Source of the DNA: Candidatus Thorarchaeota archaeon
Lineage (GTDB): Archaea > Asgardarchaeota > Thorarchaeia > Thorarchaeales > Thorarchaeaceae
Reading direction: 5' to 3'
Length of the DNA: 5,259 nucleotides
Assembly (NCBI GenBank): GCA_019057595.1
Contig: DXJI01000001.1
Location: 1 to 5,259, forward strand
This document shows positions 3,139 through 5,259 of this stretch, piece by piece. Each line of letters starts with the position of its first letter. Position 1 is the first letter of the stretch. The translations under genes and the position numbers were made by a program. The notes under the pieces were generated by a model. The model searched no databases, was not told the origin of the DNA, and worked only from the letters and a program-made list of their open reading frames with translations.

Positions 3139-3795
3139 CTAGTTAGACACCTCAACGGTTGGTCCCATGGTCGTTTTGACCTTGACACTGCTTACTCTCT
3201 CCGTGAAGCCCTTACTCTCCACGAAAGCGAGAACTGCGTTGACGTTGTCTGCTATCTCTCTATCACTCATATTGAAATGACCCACTTTCACATGGAACGT
3301 GGGTGTGTTTCGCATTCTGACACGGACAGTCCGATGATACTGATTGATTATCGCACTCAGATCCGCTTGTGGTGGGAATGGTCTGGGCATCTTTCCTCTT
3401 GAACCCAGGGTCTGTCCCAGATAACGACCAATCAATGGCATCGCGTCAACCGCTGCGATGAAGAACTCATAGCTCTTTGCCAATGACTTTCGTTCTTTCT
3501 TCTCCTCACCAATCTTTGGAATGTCATCCTTTGGAATGACACGCTCAGCTCCTGCTGCTGTGGCATTCTCTGCGAACTCTCCATCTCCAAAAGCGCATAC
3601 CTTTGGGGGTGGATACAGCGCGTTTGGAAGGACCAGTTCCTGATTGAATCTGTTCTCAGGCTTTGTGATGTCAAGCTCTTTCTTTCTGAAATTGACTGCT
3701 AAATCAAAACTCTGCTTGAACTTGATTTTTCTTTTCTTACCCTGAGCTCTTGCTTCAGTAACTGCTGCTTCAATTGTTTCGACACTAAACGACAT
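3139..3795 (-). CDS. rpl1: Large-subunit ribosomal protein L1
   Basis: A 218-residue archaeal L1, which forms the mobile L1 arm at the E-site side of the ribosome by binding 23S rRNA. The two-domain fold is recognisable. The N- and C-terminal segments form domain I (FKQSFDLAVNFRKKELDITKPENRF; HVKVGHFNMSDREIADNVNAVLAFV). The inserted Rossmann-like domain II spans about residues 65-155 (KVCAFGDGEFAENATAAGAERV). The L1 signature LGSRGKMPRPFP follows that domain, at about 130-141. Length is normal. ATG start; GGGAG (3809-3805) lies nine bases upstream and abuts the L11 stop codon, so translation is likely coupled to L11. In methanogens and halophiles L1 represses its own mRNA, but I could not identify an L1-binding motif near this start. 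Confidence 0.97.
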   Translation of the reverse strand: MSFSVETIEAAVTEARAQGKKRKIKFKQSFDLAVNFRKKELDITKPENRFNQELVLPNALYPPPKVCAFGDGEFAENATAAGAERVIPKDDIPKIGEEKKERKSLAKSYEFFIAAVDAMPLIGRYLGQTLGSRGKMPRPFPPQADLSAIINQYHRTVRVRMRNTPTFHVKVGHFNMSDREIADNVNAVLAFVESKGFTERVSSVKVKTTMGPTVEVSN

Positions 3796-3801
3796 CTGAA
3801 A

Positions 3802-4311
3802 TCACTCCCTGAAAGGTTCATCCAGCTGGGCATCCCATGTACCCTCTCGGACCTCCGCTTGGAACTCCTTCGCTGGTTTACCCTCTATTGTGACGCCCAT
3901 CTGACCACAGGTGCCAGTTACAATCATGACTCCTGCTTTCATCGTCAGGGCGGAGAGGTCGTCTGCCTTTCCCTTAGCGATTGTCTTCACTTGATCTAGA
4001 GTGAGGTTTCCGATGATGTTTGTATTAGGTTCTCCAGATCCCTTATCAGATCCAACCTCTTTCAGAATCAGTGCACTTGTTGGTGGAGTACCCACCTCAA
4101 CCTCGAAGGTCTTGTCATTTGGATTGACCGTGATTTTCACGGGTACCTTCAGACCTGCGAATGCCTGTGTGACCTCATTGATTTTAGTCACGACCTGAAA
4201 GATGTTGACACCTGTGGGACCGAGTGCTGGACCAATTGGTGGTCCTCCGCTGGCCTTACCACCTTCTACCATCGCGTCTACTATTATTGGTTTCTCGCTC
4301 AATTTCTTCAC
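3802..4311 (-). CDS. rpl11: Large-subunit ribosomal protein L11
   Basis: A 169-residue archaeal L11, which binds the GTPase-associated region of 23S rRNA beside L10. The N-terminal domain has the proline-rich helix GGPPIGPALGPTGVNI (about 22-37). The C-terminal RNA-binding domain covers about 80-155 (GSDKGSGEPNTN, GNLTLDQVKTIAKGKADDL, GTCGQMGVTIEGKPAKEF), plus a short acidic C-terminal tail. Start choice is uncertain. The GTG at 4311 overlaps the stop of a short upstream frame (GTGA) but sits only two bases after GGAG (4317-4314). A TTG three codons later (4302-4300) is 11 bases from it. Either choice keeps the whole domain. It is the first long gene after the unusual spt5-L11 spacer. Confidence 0.97.
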   Translation of the reverse strand: MKKLSEKPIIVDAMVEGGKASGGPPIGPALGPTGVNIFQVVTKINEVTQAFAGLKVPVKITVNPNDKTFEVEVGTPPTSALILKEVGSDKGSGEPNTNIIGNLTLDQVKTIAKGKADDLSALTMKAGVMIVTGTCGQMGVTIEGKPAKEFQAEVREGTWDAQLDEPFRE

Positions 4312-4418
4312 GACTCCTGATGCAGTACATACAGGGCGTACGCAACGCTTCTGATGTGGTCGACCCGCAGGACAGAATTCTTCTTACATCCAGCTAGGTC
4401 TACTGCATTCTTTGTCAC
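4308..4418 (-). CDS. Possible 36-residue leader peptide before L11
   Basis: A GTG start (4418-4416) with SD-like GGGGTG eight bases upstream opens a frame whose peptide includes TKNAVDLAGCKKNSVLRVD and ends ...VLHQES. Its TGA overlaps the L11 GTG as GTGA, the same coupling seen at the left edge of the window. The frame can also be extended upstream to ATG at 4454 (48 residues, Arg-rich N-terminus) or ATG at 4478. I recognise no family. For it: the coupled overlap and an equivalent open frame and start signal in the outer repeat copy. Against it: substitutions between copies show no synonymous excess (13 amino-acid changes against 5 silent codons). Confidence 0.3.
   Translation of the reverse strand: MTKNAVDLAGCKKNSVLRVDHIRSVAYALYVLHQES
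4314..4418 (-). repeat. Direct repeat, inner copy (abuts L11)
   Basis: Aligns without interruption, except for one 3-base indel, to 4628-4735: 83 of 105 aligned bases match (79%). The copy runs from the GGAG just before the L11 GTG to a GTGACAAA block preceded by an A-run and GGTG. Similarity fades beyond these borders. The 22 differences fall 8/7/7 on the three codon positions of the minus-strand open frame, so the divergence shows no protein-coding signature. The location suggests it is the L11 leader. Confidence 0.85.
4320..4408 (-). promoter_or_regulatory. Candidate structured mRNA leader of the stalk operon
   Basis: On the minus strand ATGCAGTA (4408-4401) can pair perfectly with TACTGCAT (4327-4320), which ends just before the L11 SD. 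Nested inside are GACC (4400-4397) with GGTC (4365-4362), GCTGGA (4394-4389) with TCCTGC (4372-4367, one T-T mismatch), and AGAA (4384-4381) with TTCT (4377-4374) around a three-base loop. A second small hairpin, GCGT (4348-4345) with ACGC (4339-4336), sits in the remaining segment. The whole could control access to the SD. A fold drawn by eye is weak evidence alone; it gains weight because the outer copy keeps it. Confidence 0.4.
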
Positions 4419-4493
4419 TTTTTTGCCACCCCGGACACGACGTCTGTGCGTCATTGTCAGATTAAGAGGATGAACCATGCCATTGATATCTTG

Positions 4494-4507
4494 TTTTAAA
4501 CATTTTG
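4494..4507 (-). promoter_or_regulatory. BRE/TATA-like promoter for the L11-L1-L10-L12 operon
   Basis: The minus strand reads CAAAATG followed by TTTAAAA (TATA-like box, 4500-4494), with an A-rich element in the BRE position directly upstream. The usual archaeal spacing of about 25 bases puts transcription start near 4472-4468. The start would therefore lie upstream of the inner repeat copy, and the whole candidate fold would be in the mRNA leader (about 160 bases before L11). This is the best box between spt5 and L11. Confidence 0.5.
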
Positions 4508-4594
4508 TTAAGAATCACCTTCTATGAGCAAAATACGCTACTAAAACCGGTCCACCACTTTCAAGATCGCTCTAATGGAATGAGAGGATGAAAT

Positions 4595-4735
4595 CTATTT
4601 CTTAGATTGGGAGTGAACTGCAAGAAACTCCTGATACAGTACATCCAGCATATGCGTAAAGGATCTGATGGGATCGACCTGCAGGACAGAAGTCTTCTCA
4701 TATCCTGCATGGTCAACTGCATTCATTTTTGTCAC
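4595..4735 (-). CDS. Possible 46-residue peptide in the outer repeat copy
   Basis: Paralogous frame to 4308-4418: GTG at 4735-4733 with GGTGA seven to eight bases upstream, an in-frame extra Met codon, then NAVDHAGYEKTSVLQVDPIRS and a longer tail ending ...HSQSKK before TAG (4597-4595). Upstream of the GTG the frame soon meets a stop. The only indel against the other copy is three bases, which keeps the frame. It may equally be a non-coding copy of the leader. No family is recognised. Confidence 0.22.
   Translation of the reverse strand: MTKMNAVDHAGYEKTSVLQVDPIRSFTHMLDVLYQEFLAVHSQSKK
4628..4735 (-). repeat. Direct repeat, outer copy
   Basis: The second copy of the element described at 4314-4418, same orientation, about 315 bases upstream of it relative to L11. 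It has one extra ATG triplet (4726-4724) near its 5' end. It keeps the upstream GGTG and A-rich stretch and the terminal CAGGAG, but no ribosomal gene follows it. Its hairpin arms are as well or better paired than those of the inner copy. Confidence 0.85.
4634..4722 (-). promoter_or_regulatory. Second copy of the candidate RNA fold
   Basis: ATGCAGT (4722-4716) pairs with ACTGTAT (4640-4634): the C-to-T change relative to the inner copy leaves a G-U pair. GACC (4714-4711) pairs with GGTC (4679-4676). TGCAGGA (4709-4703) pairs perfectly with TCCTGCA (4686-4680). AGAA (4698-4695) pairs with TTCT (4691-4688). The second hairpin position is filled by a different pairing, ATCC (4664-4661) with GGAT (4646-4643). 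Pairing is thus retained despite about 21% divergence. Confidence 0.4.
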
Positions 4736-4785
4736 TTTTCTTCACCGTTGCCCGAAACTCAGACGATCCTGGACATGGAATCCTG

Positions 4786-4810
4786 GATGAAGTTCGGTTC
4801 CTGCTTCATC
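4786..4810. other. Seven-base-pair hairpin upstream of the outer repeat
   Basis: GATGAAG (4786-4792) and CTTCATC (4804-4810) form a perfect inverted repeat around an 11-base loop. It lies in non-coding sequence between the spt5-side TATA-like box and the outer repeat, so it would be part of any RNA made from that box. No T-run follows on either strand, so it does not look like a terminator. Confidence 0.35.
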
Positions 4811-4908
4811 GAGGCTGCATCGTGACTCCGGAAGAATCACAATGTTTTACGGTCTCTCCATCAGGCGTTTCATGTCTCCGTGCAACTCGCGGCGACAATA
4901 AAGCTGAC

Positions 4909-4920
4909 CCAAGGACTTGG
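4909..4920. promoter_or_regulatory. Palindrome CCAAGGACTTGG, possible operator
   Basis: Five-base arms CCAAG/CTTGG around GA lie about 45 bases downstream of the TATA-like box at 4963-4974, in non-coding sequence. Symmetric sites of this size can bind dimeric regulators. No second copy was seen in the window, so the call is weak. Confidence 0.2.
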
Positions 4921-4962
4921 CTCTTGTCCCAGACCAGCTCTACACTTCACTGTTCATTCTGG

Positions 4963-4974
4963 ATAATATAAACA
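4963..4974 (-). promoter_or_regulatory. Second TATA-like box downstream of spt5
   Basis: The minus strand reads GTTTATATTATC, a good archaeal TATA-like sequence about 50 bases beyond the spt5 stop. It would start transcription near 4945-4940 and produce an RNA running through the outer repeat copy. No T-run clearly ends spt5 before it. T4 runs at 4546-4543 and 4533-4530 could end such a short transcript before the L11 promoter. Confidence 0.35.
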
Positions 4975-5024
4975 CCAATGAGGAAGTATTTCTGAATGTT
5001 AAGGATTACGCCACAGCAACTTTT

Positions 5025-5259
5025 CTAATCCTCGGGTTCATGAGCCCAGAACGAGTCTTCTTCATCGAACTTGTCATCATCATCCTTTGCTTTTGCTGCT
5101 GCAGCCTCATCAACGGGCTCTTCTTTCCTTTCAGCTCTCTCGACAATTTTGGCGAAATCCGCATGAACCCTCACCGGAATCGTGTAAGGGCTGTCCAGAA
5201 GCTCAAGAATCAGTTCTTCTTTCCCTGCATCCACTCGAACGACTTTGGCACGCTCGCCC
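5025..5259 (-). CDS. spt5: Transcription elongation factor Spt5 (NusG homologue), C-terminal part
   Basis: The frame is open to the right edge and gives the last 77 residues, beginning GERAKVVRVDAGKEEL and continuing LILELLDSPYTIPVRV. This is the core of the archaeal Spt5 KOW domain, which contacts the ribosome and other factors. The N-terminal NGN domain that binds the RNA polymerase clamp lies outside the window. After the KOW fold the protein carries an unusual acidic tail of about 30 residues containing an Ala run, DDDDKFDEED and FWAHEPED, whereas many archaeal Spt5 proteins end close to the KOW. Position directly before the L11 operon is the conserved archaeal arrangement and supports the call. 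A GTG at 5234 is internal, not a start. Confidence 0.9.
   Translation of the reverse strand, partial: GERAKVVRVDAGKEELILELLDSPYTIPVRVHADFAKIVERAERKEEPVDEAAAAKAKDDDDKFDEEDSFWAHEPED

Follow-up and report, generated by a model that had tools for sequence, protein, structure and literature searches.

A conserved 5' leader with a predicted RNA fold and an overlapping short open reading frame at the L11 operon of Thorarchaeota, and a probable relic copy beside an IS605/TnpB-type element

The window analyzed here is a stretch of 5,259 nucleotides from a Candidatus Thorarchaeota archaeon (assembly GCA_019057595.1, contig DXJI01000001.1). Along its minus strand lie a fragment of spt5, an element that we call X, two copies of a repeat (copy 2, then copy 1), and the genes for the ribosomal proteins L11, L1, L10, and L12. 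The L11 (uL11) gene (3802..4302, minus strand; Pfam Ribosomal_L11) is given a GTG start at 4311 in the list of open reading frames, but its true start is likely the TTG at 4302, given its alignment with ATG codons in two relatives (L004 and L010). The 3' part of spt5 (5025..5258, minus strand) owes its name to an earlier note on this DNA; it matches all 23 loci of relatives described below, where it lies upstream of L11, and a Pfam scan of the 69-residue fragment returned no spt5 match.

That note had drawn attention to two same-strand copies of an element at 4314-4418 and 4628-4735. The repeat is real: both copies lie on the minus strand like L11, and their alignment contains one 3-nt gap. 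The reported identity of 83 out of 105 was close, the exact count being 84 of 105 aligned bases. The local alignment of the two copies scores 59 against a maximum of 14 over 500 shuffles, and a repeat search of the window recovers 101 nt at 78% with a spacing of 314. As also described earlier, copy 1 terminates at the L11 Shine-Dalgarno sequence (GGAG, 4314..4317, minus strand), which is invariant in the alignments and falls within the last codons of a short ORF, and copy 2 has no downstream gene, although its end also reads CAGGAG. Conservation extends beyond the repeat: at copy 1, the conserved unit begins with a promoter near 4500 and ends at the L11 start. Within it, copy 1 (4314..4418, minus strand) corresponds to a domain comprising helices P1 to P3 up to the L11 Shine-Dalgarno sequence, as judged from the alignment, from covariation, and from a match of 113.2 bits to our covariance model R2. 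Copy 2 (4628..4744, minus strand) matches the same model at 87.9 bits (long-form orthologues: 45.7-118); it lacks the upstream hairpin h1 and the promoter, and its leader-like sequence extends to 4744, where it abuts the right end of a dispersed repeat (4745-∼4998). Between copy 2 and the copy 1 promoter, the spacer (4505-4625) has no match at E ≤ 1 among the loci of the 23 relatives.

These relatives are 23 loci found with an L1 protein query, all from Candidatus Thorarchaeota. The leader lies directly upstream of L11 in all 23 of these L1-bearing loci, i.e., in the consistent position 5' of a ribosomal-protein operon that characterizes ribosomal-protein leaders. In a tree of the L11, L1, and L10 proteins, the window groups with L002 (support 99). 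Two loci carry a shorter form (L004:4377-4483 and L010:4377-4483), a leader of 107 nt that retains P1, P2, and h1 and has lost P3 and the start of the short ORF; L010 is placed very near L008 and L011, which have long-form leaders, in the operon protein tree. The short forms were excluded from both covariance models, R1, whose matches rest mostly on sequence, and R2, in which the pairs were corrected. A search along the lines proposed in the earlier note, with covariance models in related archaeal genomes, found one strong match per genome, upstream of L11 in all loci inspected. With R1, 21 of the 23 genomes were matched at E ≤ 1, each by one strong match and all at the L11 locus, the next best match anywhere reaching 20.7 bits (E 0.3). 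Among 227 genomes of the phylum, which include most of the 23, 41 were matched with R1 and 44 with R2, the best 16 candidates per genome being scored in both searches, so that extra weak copies could escape. Forty-two of the R2 genomes have one match each at E ≤ 9e-5; the two others (G123 and G154) have E values of about 0.03, as expected by chance over 227 genomes. In the further matched genomes, every locus that we inspected continues into L11. G004 and G010 have short-form leaders, G212 has, by eye, a diverged form at L11, and no L11 was found in G219. Copy 1 thus belongs to a 5' leader that is conserved at the L11-L1-L10-L12 operon of Thorarchaeota.

The leader appears to be restricted to Thorarchaeota: three exact leader motifs are absent from the 190 nt upstream of L11 in 18 other genomes of the phylum (24 genomes were queried, 21 of which had L11). 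The plasmid collection yielded no leader match, and the viral contigs no relative of the L1 query protein. In 6 of these 18 other upstream regions, we observed a different conserved element with two hairpins (CUAAGU...CUUAG(G)ACG...CGGUUUCAAUAU...AUAUUGAAA; L120:1323-1442 and L121:1317-1436 on the plus strand, L125:2052-2171, L126:2048-2167, L128:2085-2204, and L129:2076-2195 on the minus strand). It has no match in Rfam and may be a second, unrelated leader. Separately, L002 carries, on the opposite strand upstream of spt5, 25 nt (L002:3318-3342) resembling the 3' strand of P1 plus the Shine-Dalgarno sequence (88%, E 0.005), which do not match the RNA model.

Based on the alignments, the leader is predicted to fold into the hairpin h1 followed by a three-way junction of P1, P2, and P3 that reaches the L11 Shine-Dalgarno sequence. 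P1 is formed by AUGCAGU (4402..4408, minus strand) and ACUGCAU (4320..4326, minus strand), the latter immediately 5' of CAGGAG; 91.7% of its cells are paired over 8 pairs, 4 of which are invariant, and its support comes from complementarity and not from covariation, P1 being nearly invariant. P2 pairs GACC (4397..4400, minus strand) with GGUC (4362..4365, minus strand), and 98.2% of its cells are paired. We tested covariation on 41 R2 matches (40 leaders and copy 2), in which 91.8% of 730 cells are standard pairs. Cells changed on both sides number 26 against 7.4 ± 2.2 in shuffles, none out of 500 reaching 26, and 1-12 in slid controls; the shuffles carry no correction for relatedness and the alignment was fitted to the model structure, which favors it, while the slid controls keep relatedness. 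With the same proviso for the shuffles, 7 of the 18 pairs show a change on both sides (7 out of 500 shuffles reach 7), and the covariation score is 0.153 versus 0.097. This covariation is located in the inner part of P2 and in P3, P2 proper contributing one such pair. Signal was weaker in the first, closer alignments (24 and 22 sequences), where the covariation terms of RNAalifold were almost nil (-0.79 and +0.05) because P1 and most of P2 barely vary among close relatives. The folding energy of copy 1 is modestly better than that of shuffles (z -1.67, 12 out of 200 being as good).

Hairpin h1 (4427..4469, minus strand, at copy 1) was examined in an alignment of 38 leaders. Its outer 4 pairs are present in 100% of cells and its inner stem in 73.6%; 6 of 12 pairs change on both sides, and both-side-changed cells number 16 versus 10.8 ± 2.6 in shuffles (18 out of 500 reach this value). 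The outer CYYC/GGGG pairs occur in every leader and vary on one side only; at copy 1, the 5' CCUC is able to pair with an invariant GGGG that resembles the Shine-Dalgarno sequence of the short ORF. Upstream of h1 lies a TATA-like box, TTTAAAA (4494..4500, minus strand), belonging to the putative promoter of copy 1 and the L11 operon. A TTAAAA-type box 30-36 nt before CYYCUUAAU was measured by pattern in 12 of the 38 leaders; the pattern missed the other 26, nearly all of which, by eye, have TTAAAAC. Since the CYYC strand of h1 follows the TATA box by about 30 nt, it may sit at or just outside the 5' end of the transcript. Two further pairings were considered and set aside. An anti-Shine-Dalgarno switch between a 5' CUCC and the GGAG of L11 appears in some single-sequence folds and pairs poorly in UCCC variants, and a P0 helix (GUGAC/GUCGU) flanking P1 fits, by eye, some leaders only. 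No tRNA was found in the window, and at gathering scores Rfam matched only tRNAs in the window and 17 loci; a permissive Rfam search of 3700-5259 gave two weak matches below cut-off that we treated as chance, one to a human lncRNA model and one to RAGATH-18 (20.8 bits, cut-off 44.9).

The folded part of the leader is overlapped by a short ORF. In copy 1, it starts with GTG at 4418 and runs over 36 codons to a TGA at 4308-4310 (4308..4418, minus strand), 8 nt before the L11 start, counted from first base to first base. At this position, 41 of 42 long-form leaders have a start codon, with GTG, ATG, and TTG interchanging; it lies 5-9 nt downstream of a conserved GGGGT, and the GCA (once ACA) of P1 follows at a distance of exactly four codons (five in L108). 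In-frame starts are missing from the short forms L004 and L010 and from the diverged L098. The frame stays open up to the L11 Shine-Dalgarno sequence in 41 of 42 leaders, the exception being an early stop in L112, against an expected openness of 33.6% per leader derived from dinucleotide shuffles of the variable middle. Among representatives at less than 85, 75, 70, and 65% identity, 24/25, 17/18, 15/16, and 7/8 frames are open (P = 7e-11, 1.4e-7, 1.4e-6, and 1.7e-3, the representatives being taken as independent). In the 32 leaders in which the L11 start could be located by pattern (10 fell outside this measurement), the distance between the first bases of stop and L11 start is -8 to +8 nt in 31 and -64 in L112, bearing in mind that the L11 start region carries stops in other frames too, which favors close distances. 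A frame that ends on the start of the next gene is the layout of translational coupling, and we therefore propose that the two are coupled. The frame of copy 2 that matches the short ORF (4595..4735, minus strand) has 46 codons and no gene at its end.

Copy 2 has a neighbor of a different nature. Element X (4745..4998, minus strand) resembles the right end, or omega-RNA region, of an IS605-type TnpB element whose left end is truncated. A query spanning 4626-4990 was matched in 19 of the 23 genomes, at up to 30 places per genome, 30 being the number scored; by position, the single match in G003, G005, G013, and G023 is the L11 leader itself, so X-like copies are present in about 15 of the 23. 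The copies share a common end (GGGCAACGG / GGTTTCGGGCAACGG), and TnpB ORFs extend into X in L036, L051, and L053, two of which were scanned with Pfam and contain OrfB_IS605, Cas12f1-like_TNB, and HTH_OrfB_IS605. Dispersed copies that share a right end adjoining TnpB ORFs are what defines such elements. X in the window differs from them in its truncated left end and in having no intact TnpB or transposase: there is no such ORF in 4745-5024, and the tail frame is broken by stops. Right ends of this type reach tens of copies in some Thorarchaeota, and many of them have no adjoining TnpB ORF and seem internally deleted, MITE-like. Another copy lies in the same operon neighborhood of a relative, between L12 and an opposite-strand histone-deacetylase-like gene (L021:7056-7136). 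Both the assignment of X to the omega-RNA right ends and the target motif suggested for it draw partly on general properties of TnpB elements. Archaeal omega-RNAs are the subject of PMC12558985.

Copy 2 starts at the right end of X (TGAAGAAAAGTGAC), at the point that follows the invariant GGGG in an intact leader. In ∼17 of the 20 X copies retrieved, the beginning lies, by eye, at or after (A/G)GGG, and GGGG may thus have been the target motif. On the other side of X, right after spt5, 21 of 23 bases (4999..5021, minus strand; AGTTGCTGTG..GTAATCCTTAA) are identical to the L11 promoter region of L002; this stretch is likely what is left of the original L11 promoter, with X now downstream of it. 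L010 has X in this position as well, and after it a short stretch that resembles a decayed leader (R1 14.5 bits, E 0.68). The earlier note had weighed whether the repeat might be a dispersed transposable one; the repeat itself is not dispersed, and the sequence beside copy 2 is. X is thus a neighbor of the repeat and not the repeat.

How old copy 2 is can be approached from the leader tree, in which it falls outside the pair formed by copy 1 and L002 (supports 94 and 93). Tentatively, the duplication may predate the split between the window and L002, with a loss in L002, in a tree that rests on about 100 sites and one long branch. The branch of copy 2 measures 0.25, compared with a fourfold-site divergence of K = 0.44 between the window and L002 (about 0.22 per lineage); a branch of about half the fourfold divergence is relic-like, at about the synonymous rate. 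At the same time, changes affect only 2 of 28 otherwise invariant columns (P 0.013), and 13 of 14 pairs are still intact (P 0.027, both against random substitutions on copy 1), a retention that exceeds the prediction of pure decay. Most likely, copy 2 is a relic that spent part of its existence under constraint. It would be an old duplicate of the leader domain, beside which an IS605/TnpB-type element inserted at a GGGG|UGAA site; deletions would then have removed its promoter and h1, leaving a mostly decaying sequence with no target gene.

Alternatively, copy 2 could still work, either as an additional leader or as an RNA decoy for the regulator, with transcription driven by promoter-like sequence of X. 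The retention of its invariant columns and pairs would fit such a role, as would a model score within the range of orthologues, folding better than shuffles (z -2.56), and the GGUGA that the junction leaves before its GTG. We nevertheless regard it as rather improbable: copy 2 is found in the window only (none among the 23 and 227 genomes searched, with a limited number of candidates scored per genome, the best 16 in the two large searches), its rate is near the synonymous one, its minimum-energy fold lacks P1, and no gene follows it. The earlier view that the duplication itself points to function or to a small RNA is not supported, relatives being single-copy within the candidates scored and copy 2 evolving at a nearly neutral rate next to a mobile-element remnant. 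What survives of the earlier reading is a functional cis-element upstream of L11 at copy 1, which is conserved at L11 with a covarying fold and a conserved frame; it does not extend to copy 2. Likewise, close relatives do have copy 1, and it is copy 2 that they lack. Another reading is that the conservation reflects a gene for a small protein, duplicated in the repeat, with the fold being incidental. The open frame and start codon are indeed conserved, and the sole gap between the copies measures 3 nt. Against this, the first, second, and third codon positions show 59, 87, and 98 changes within groups of close relatives, and synonymous changes are in slight excess (82 vs. 71.4 expected), so the frame seems to be kept more than the peptide. 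The C-terminus is read in different frames where the DNA is conserved, the fold covaries, and the frame containing the short ORF has no match in Pfam. We hold this explanation to be very unlikely.

For the leader at L11, the reading that we favor, with somewhat better than even confidence, is that of a ribosomal-protein feedback leader with coupling through the short upstream ORF, copy 2 being a decaying duplicate beside the IS605/TnpB-type insertion. The short ORF would be translated, and translation of L11 would be coupled to it. Hairpin h1 could mask the Shine-Dalgarno sequence of the short ORF, and P1 would extend into both initiation sites. When in excess, one of the operon's own ribosomal proteins (by precedent, L1) would bind and stabilize the fold, keeping both the short ORF and L11 untranslated and thereby shutting down the operon. 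Feedback by L1 on L11-L1 mRNAs is known from bacteria and archaea, and the known mRNA sites of L1 mimic its site on 23S rRNA (PMC10931766, in part). We compared the leader with 23S sequences, a match to which was obtained in 2 of 7 thorarchaeal genomes searched, and found no clear mimic of the L1 site, an irregular stem with an internal bulge (shared 9-mers, and the L1 stalk by eye), and no convincing match to the L11 site (9-mers and by eye). The leader and the 23S sequence share UCAGGAG, which includes the Shine-Dalgarno sequence. This lack of visible mimicry of the L1 site would suit a leader that responds instead to a small molecule or to the growth state, as a riboswitch, or a structure that tunes translation efficiency, the short ORF coupling translation in the same way. 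The strongly conserved bases around the junction are compatible with that possibility, as is the confinement of strong matches to the L11 operon in the inspected loci. We consider it unlikely, since the leader precedes a ribosomal operon of the kind under L1 feedback (PMC10931766, in part) and several real ribosomal-protein leaders are devoid of rRNA mimicry (PMC7247131, in part). More speculative still, and in our opinion highly improbable, is a scheme in which the passing ribosome is itself the sensor that opens and closes the Asgard L11 operon, the three-way junction lying wholly inside a short frame whose peptide changes freely, and in which copy 2 and the omega-RNA joined to it have been retained in this lineage as an RNA acting in trans; this RNA would serve as a decoy that titrates the operon repressor, or as a guide for TnpB with first bases matching those of the leader.

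Among known systems, the feedback leader that we propose is closest to the uL1 autoregulatory site of the rplK-rplA operon, which is also a structured mRNA site opening an operon with L11 and L1 (PMC10931766, in part). In the L11 operon of E. coli, translational coupling is combined with repression by L1 (PMC12548453, in part), and coupling is likewise proposed for the thorarchaeal leader. Unlike the uL1 site, the thorarchaeal leader shows no evident mimicry of the L1 site of 23S rRNA (by eye), and its fold lies inside a short ORF that looks translated. It resembles the archaeal S15, eL15, and L4 leaders (Eckert and Weinberg, 2020; PMC7247131, in part) in being a structured 5' region of a ribosomal operon that is confined to one lineage and supported by covariation; these leaders belong to other genes and another lineage, and the main text of that paper mentions neither Asgard nor Thorarchaeota, uL11, uL1, or uL10. 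Few archaeal cis-regulatory RNAs were known in 2020 (PMC7247131, in part), and none of the titles listed in our literature searches refers to a ribosomal-protein leader of L11 or to a cis-regulatory RNA, ribosomal-protein leaders included, of Asgard archaea.

Copy 2 illustrates how a duplicate of a regulatory leader can become stranded by a TnpB-type element, which cautions against equating duplication with function. Asgard archaea are thought to be the archaeal group closest to eukaryotes. With a covarying fold that overlaps a conserved short frame upstream of L11, ribosomal-protein feedback and translational coupling become testable in these organisms.
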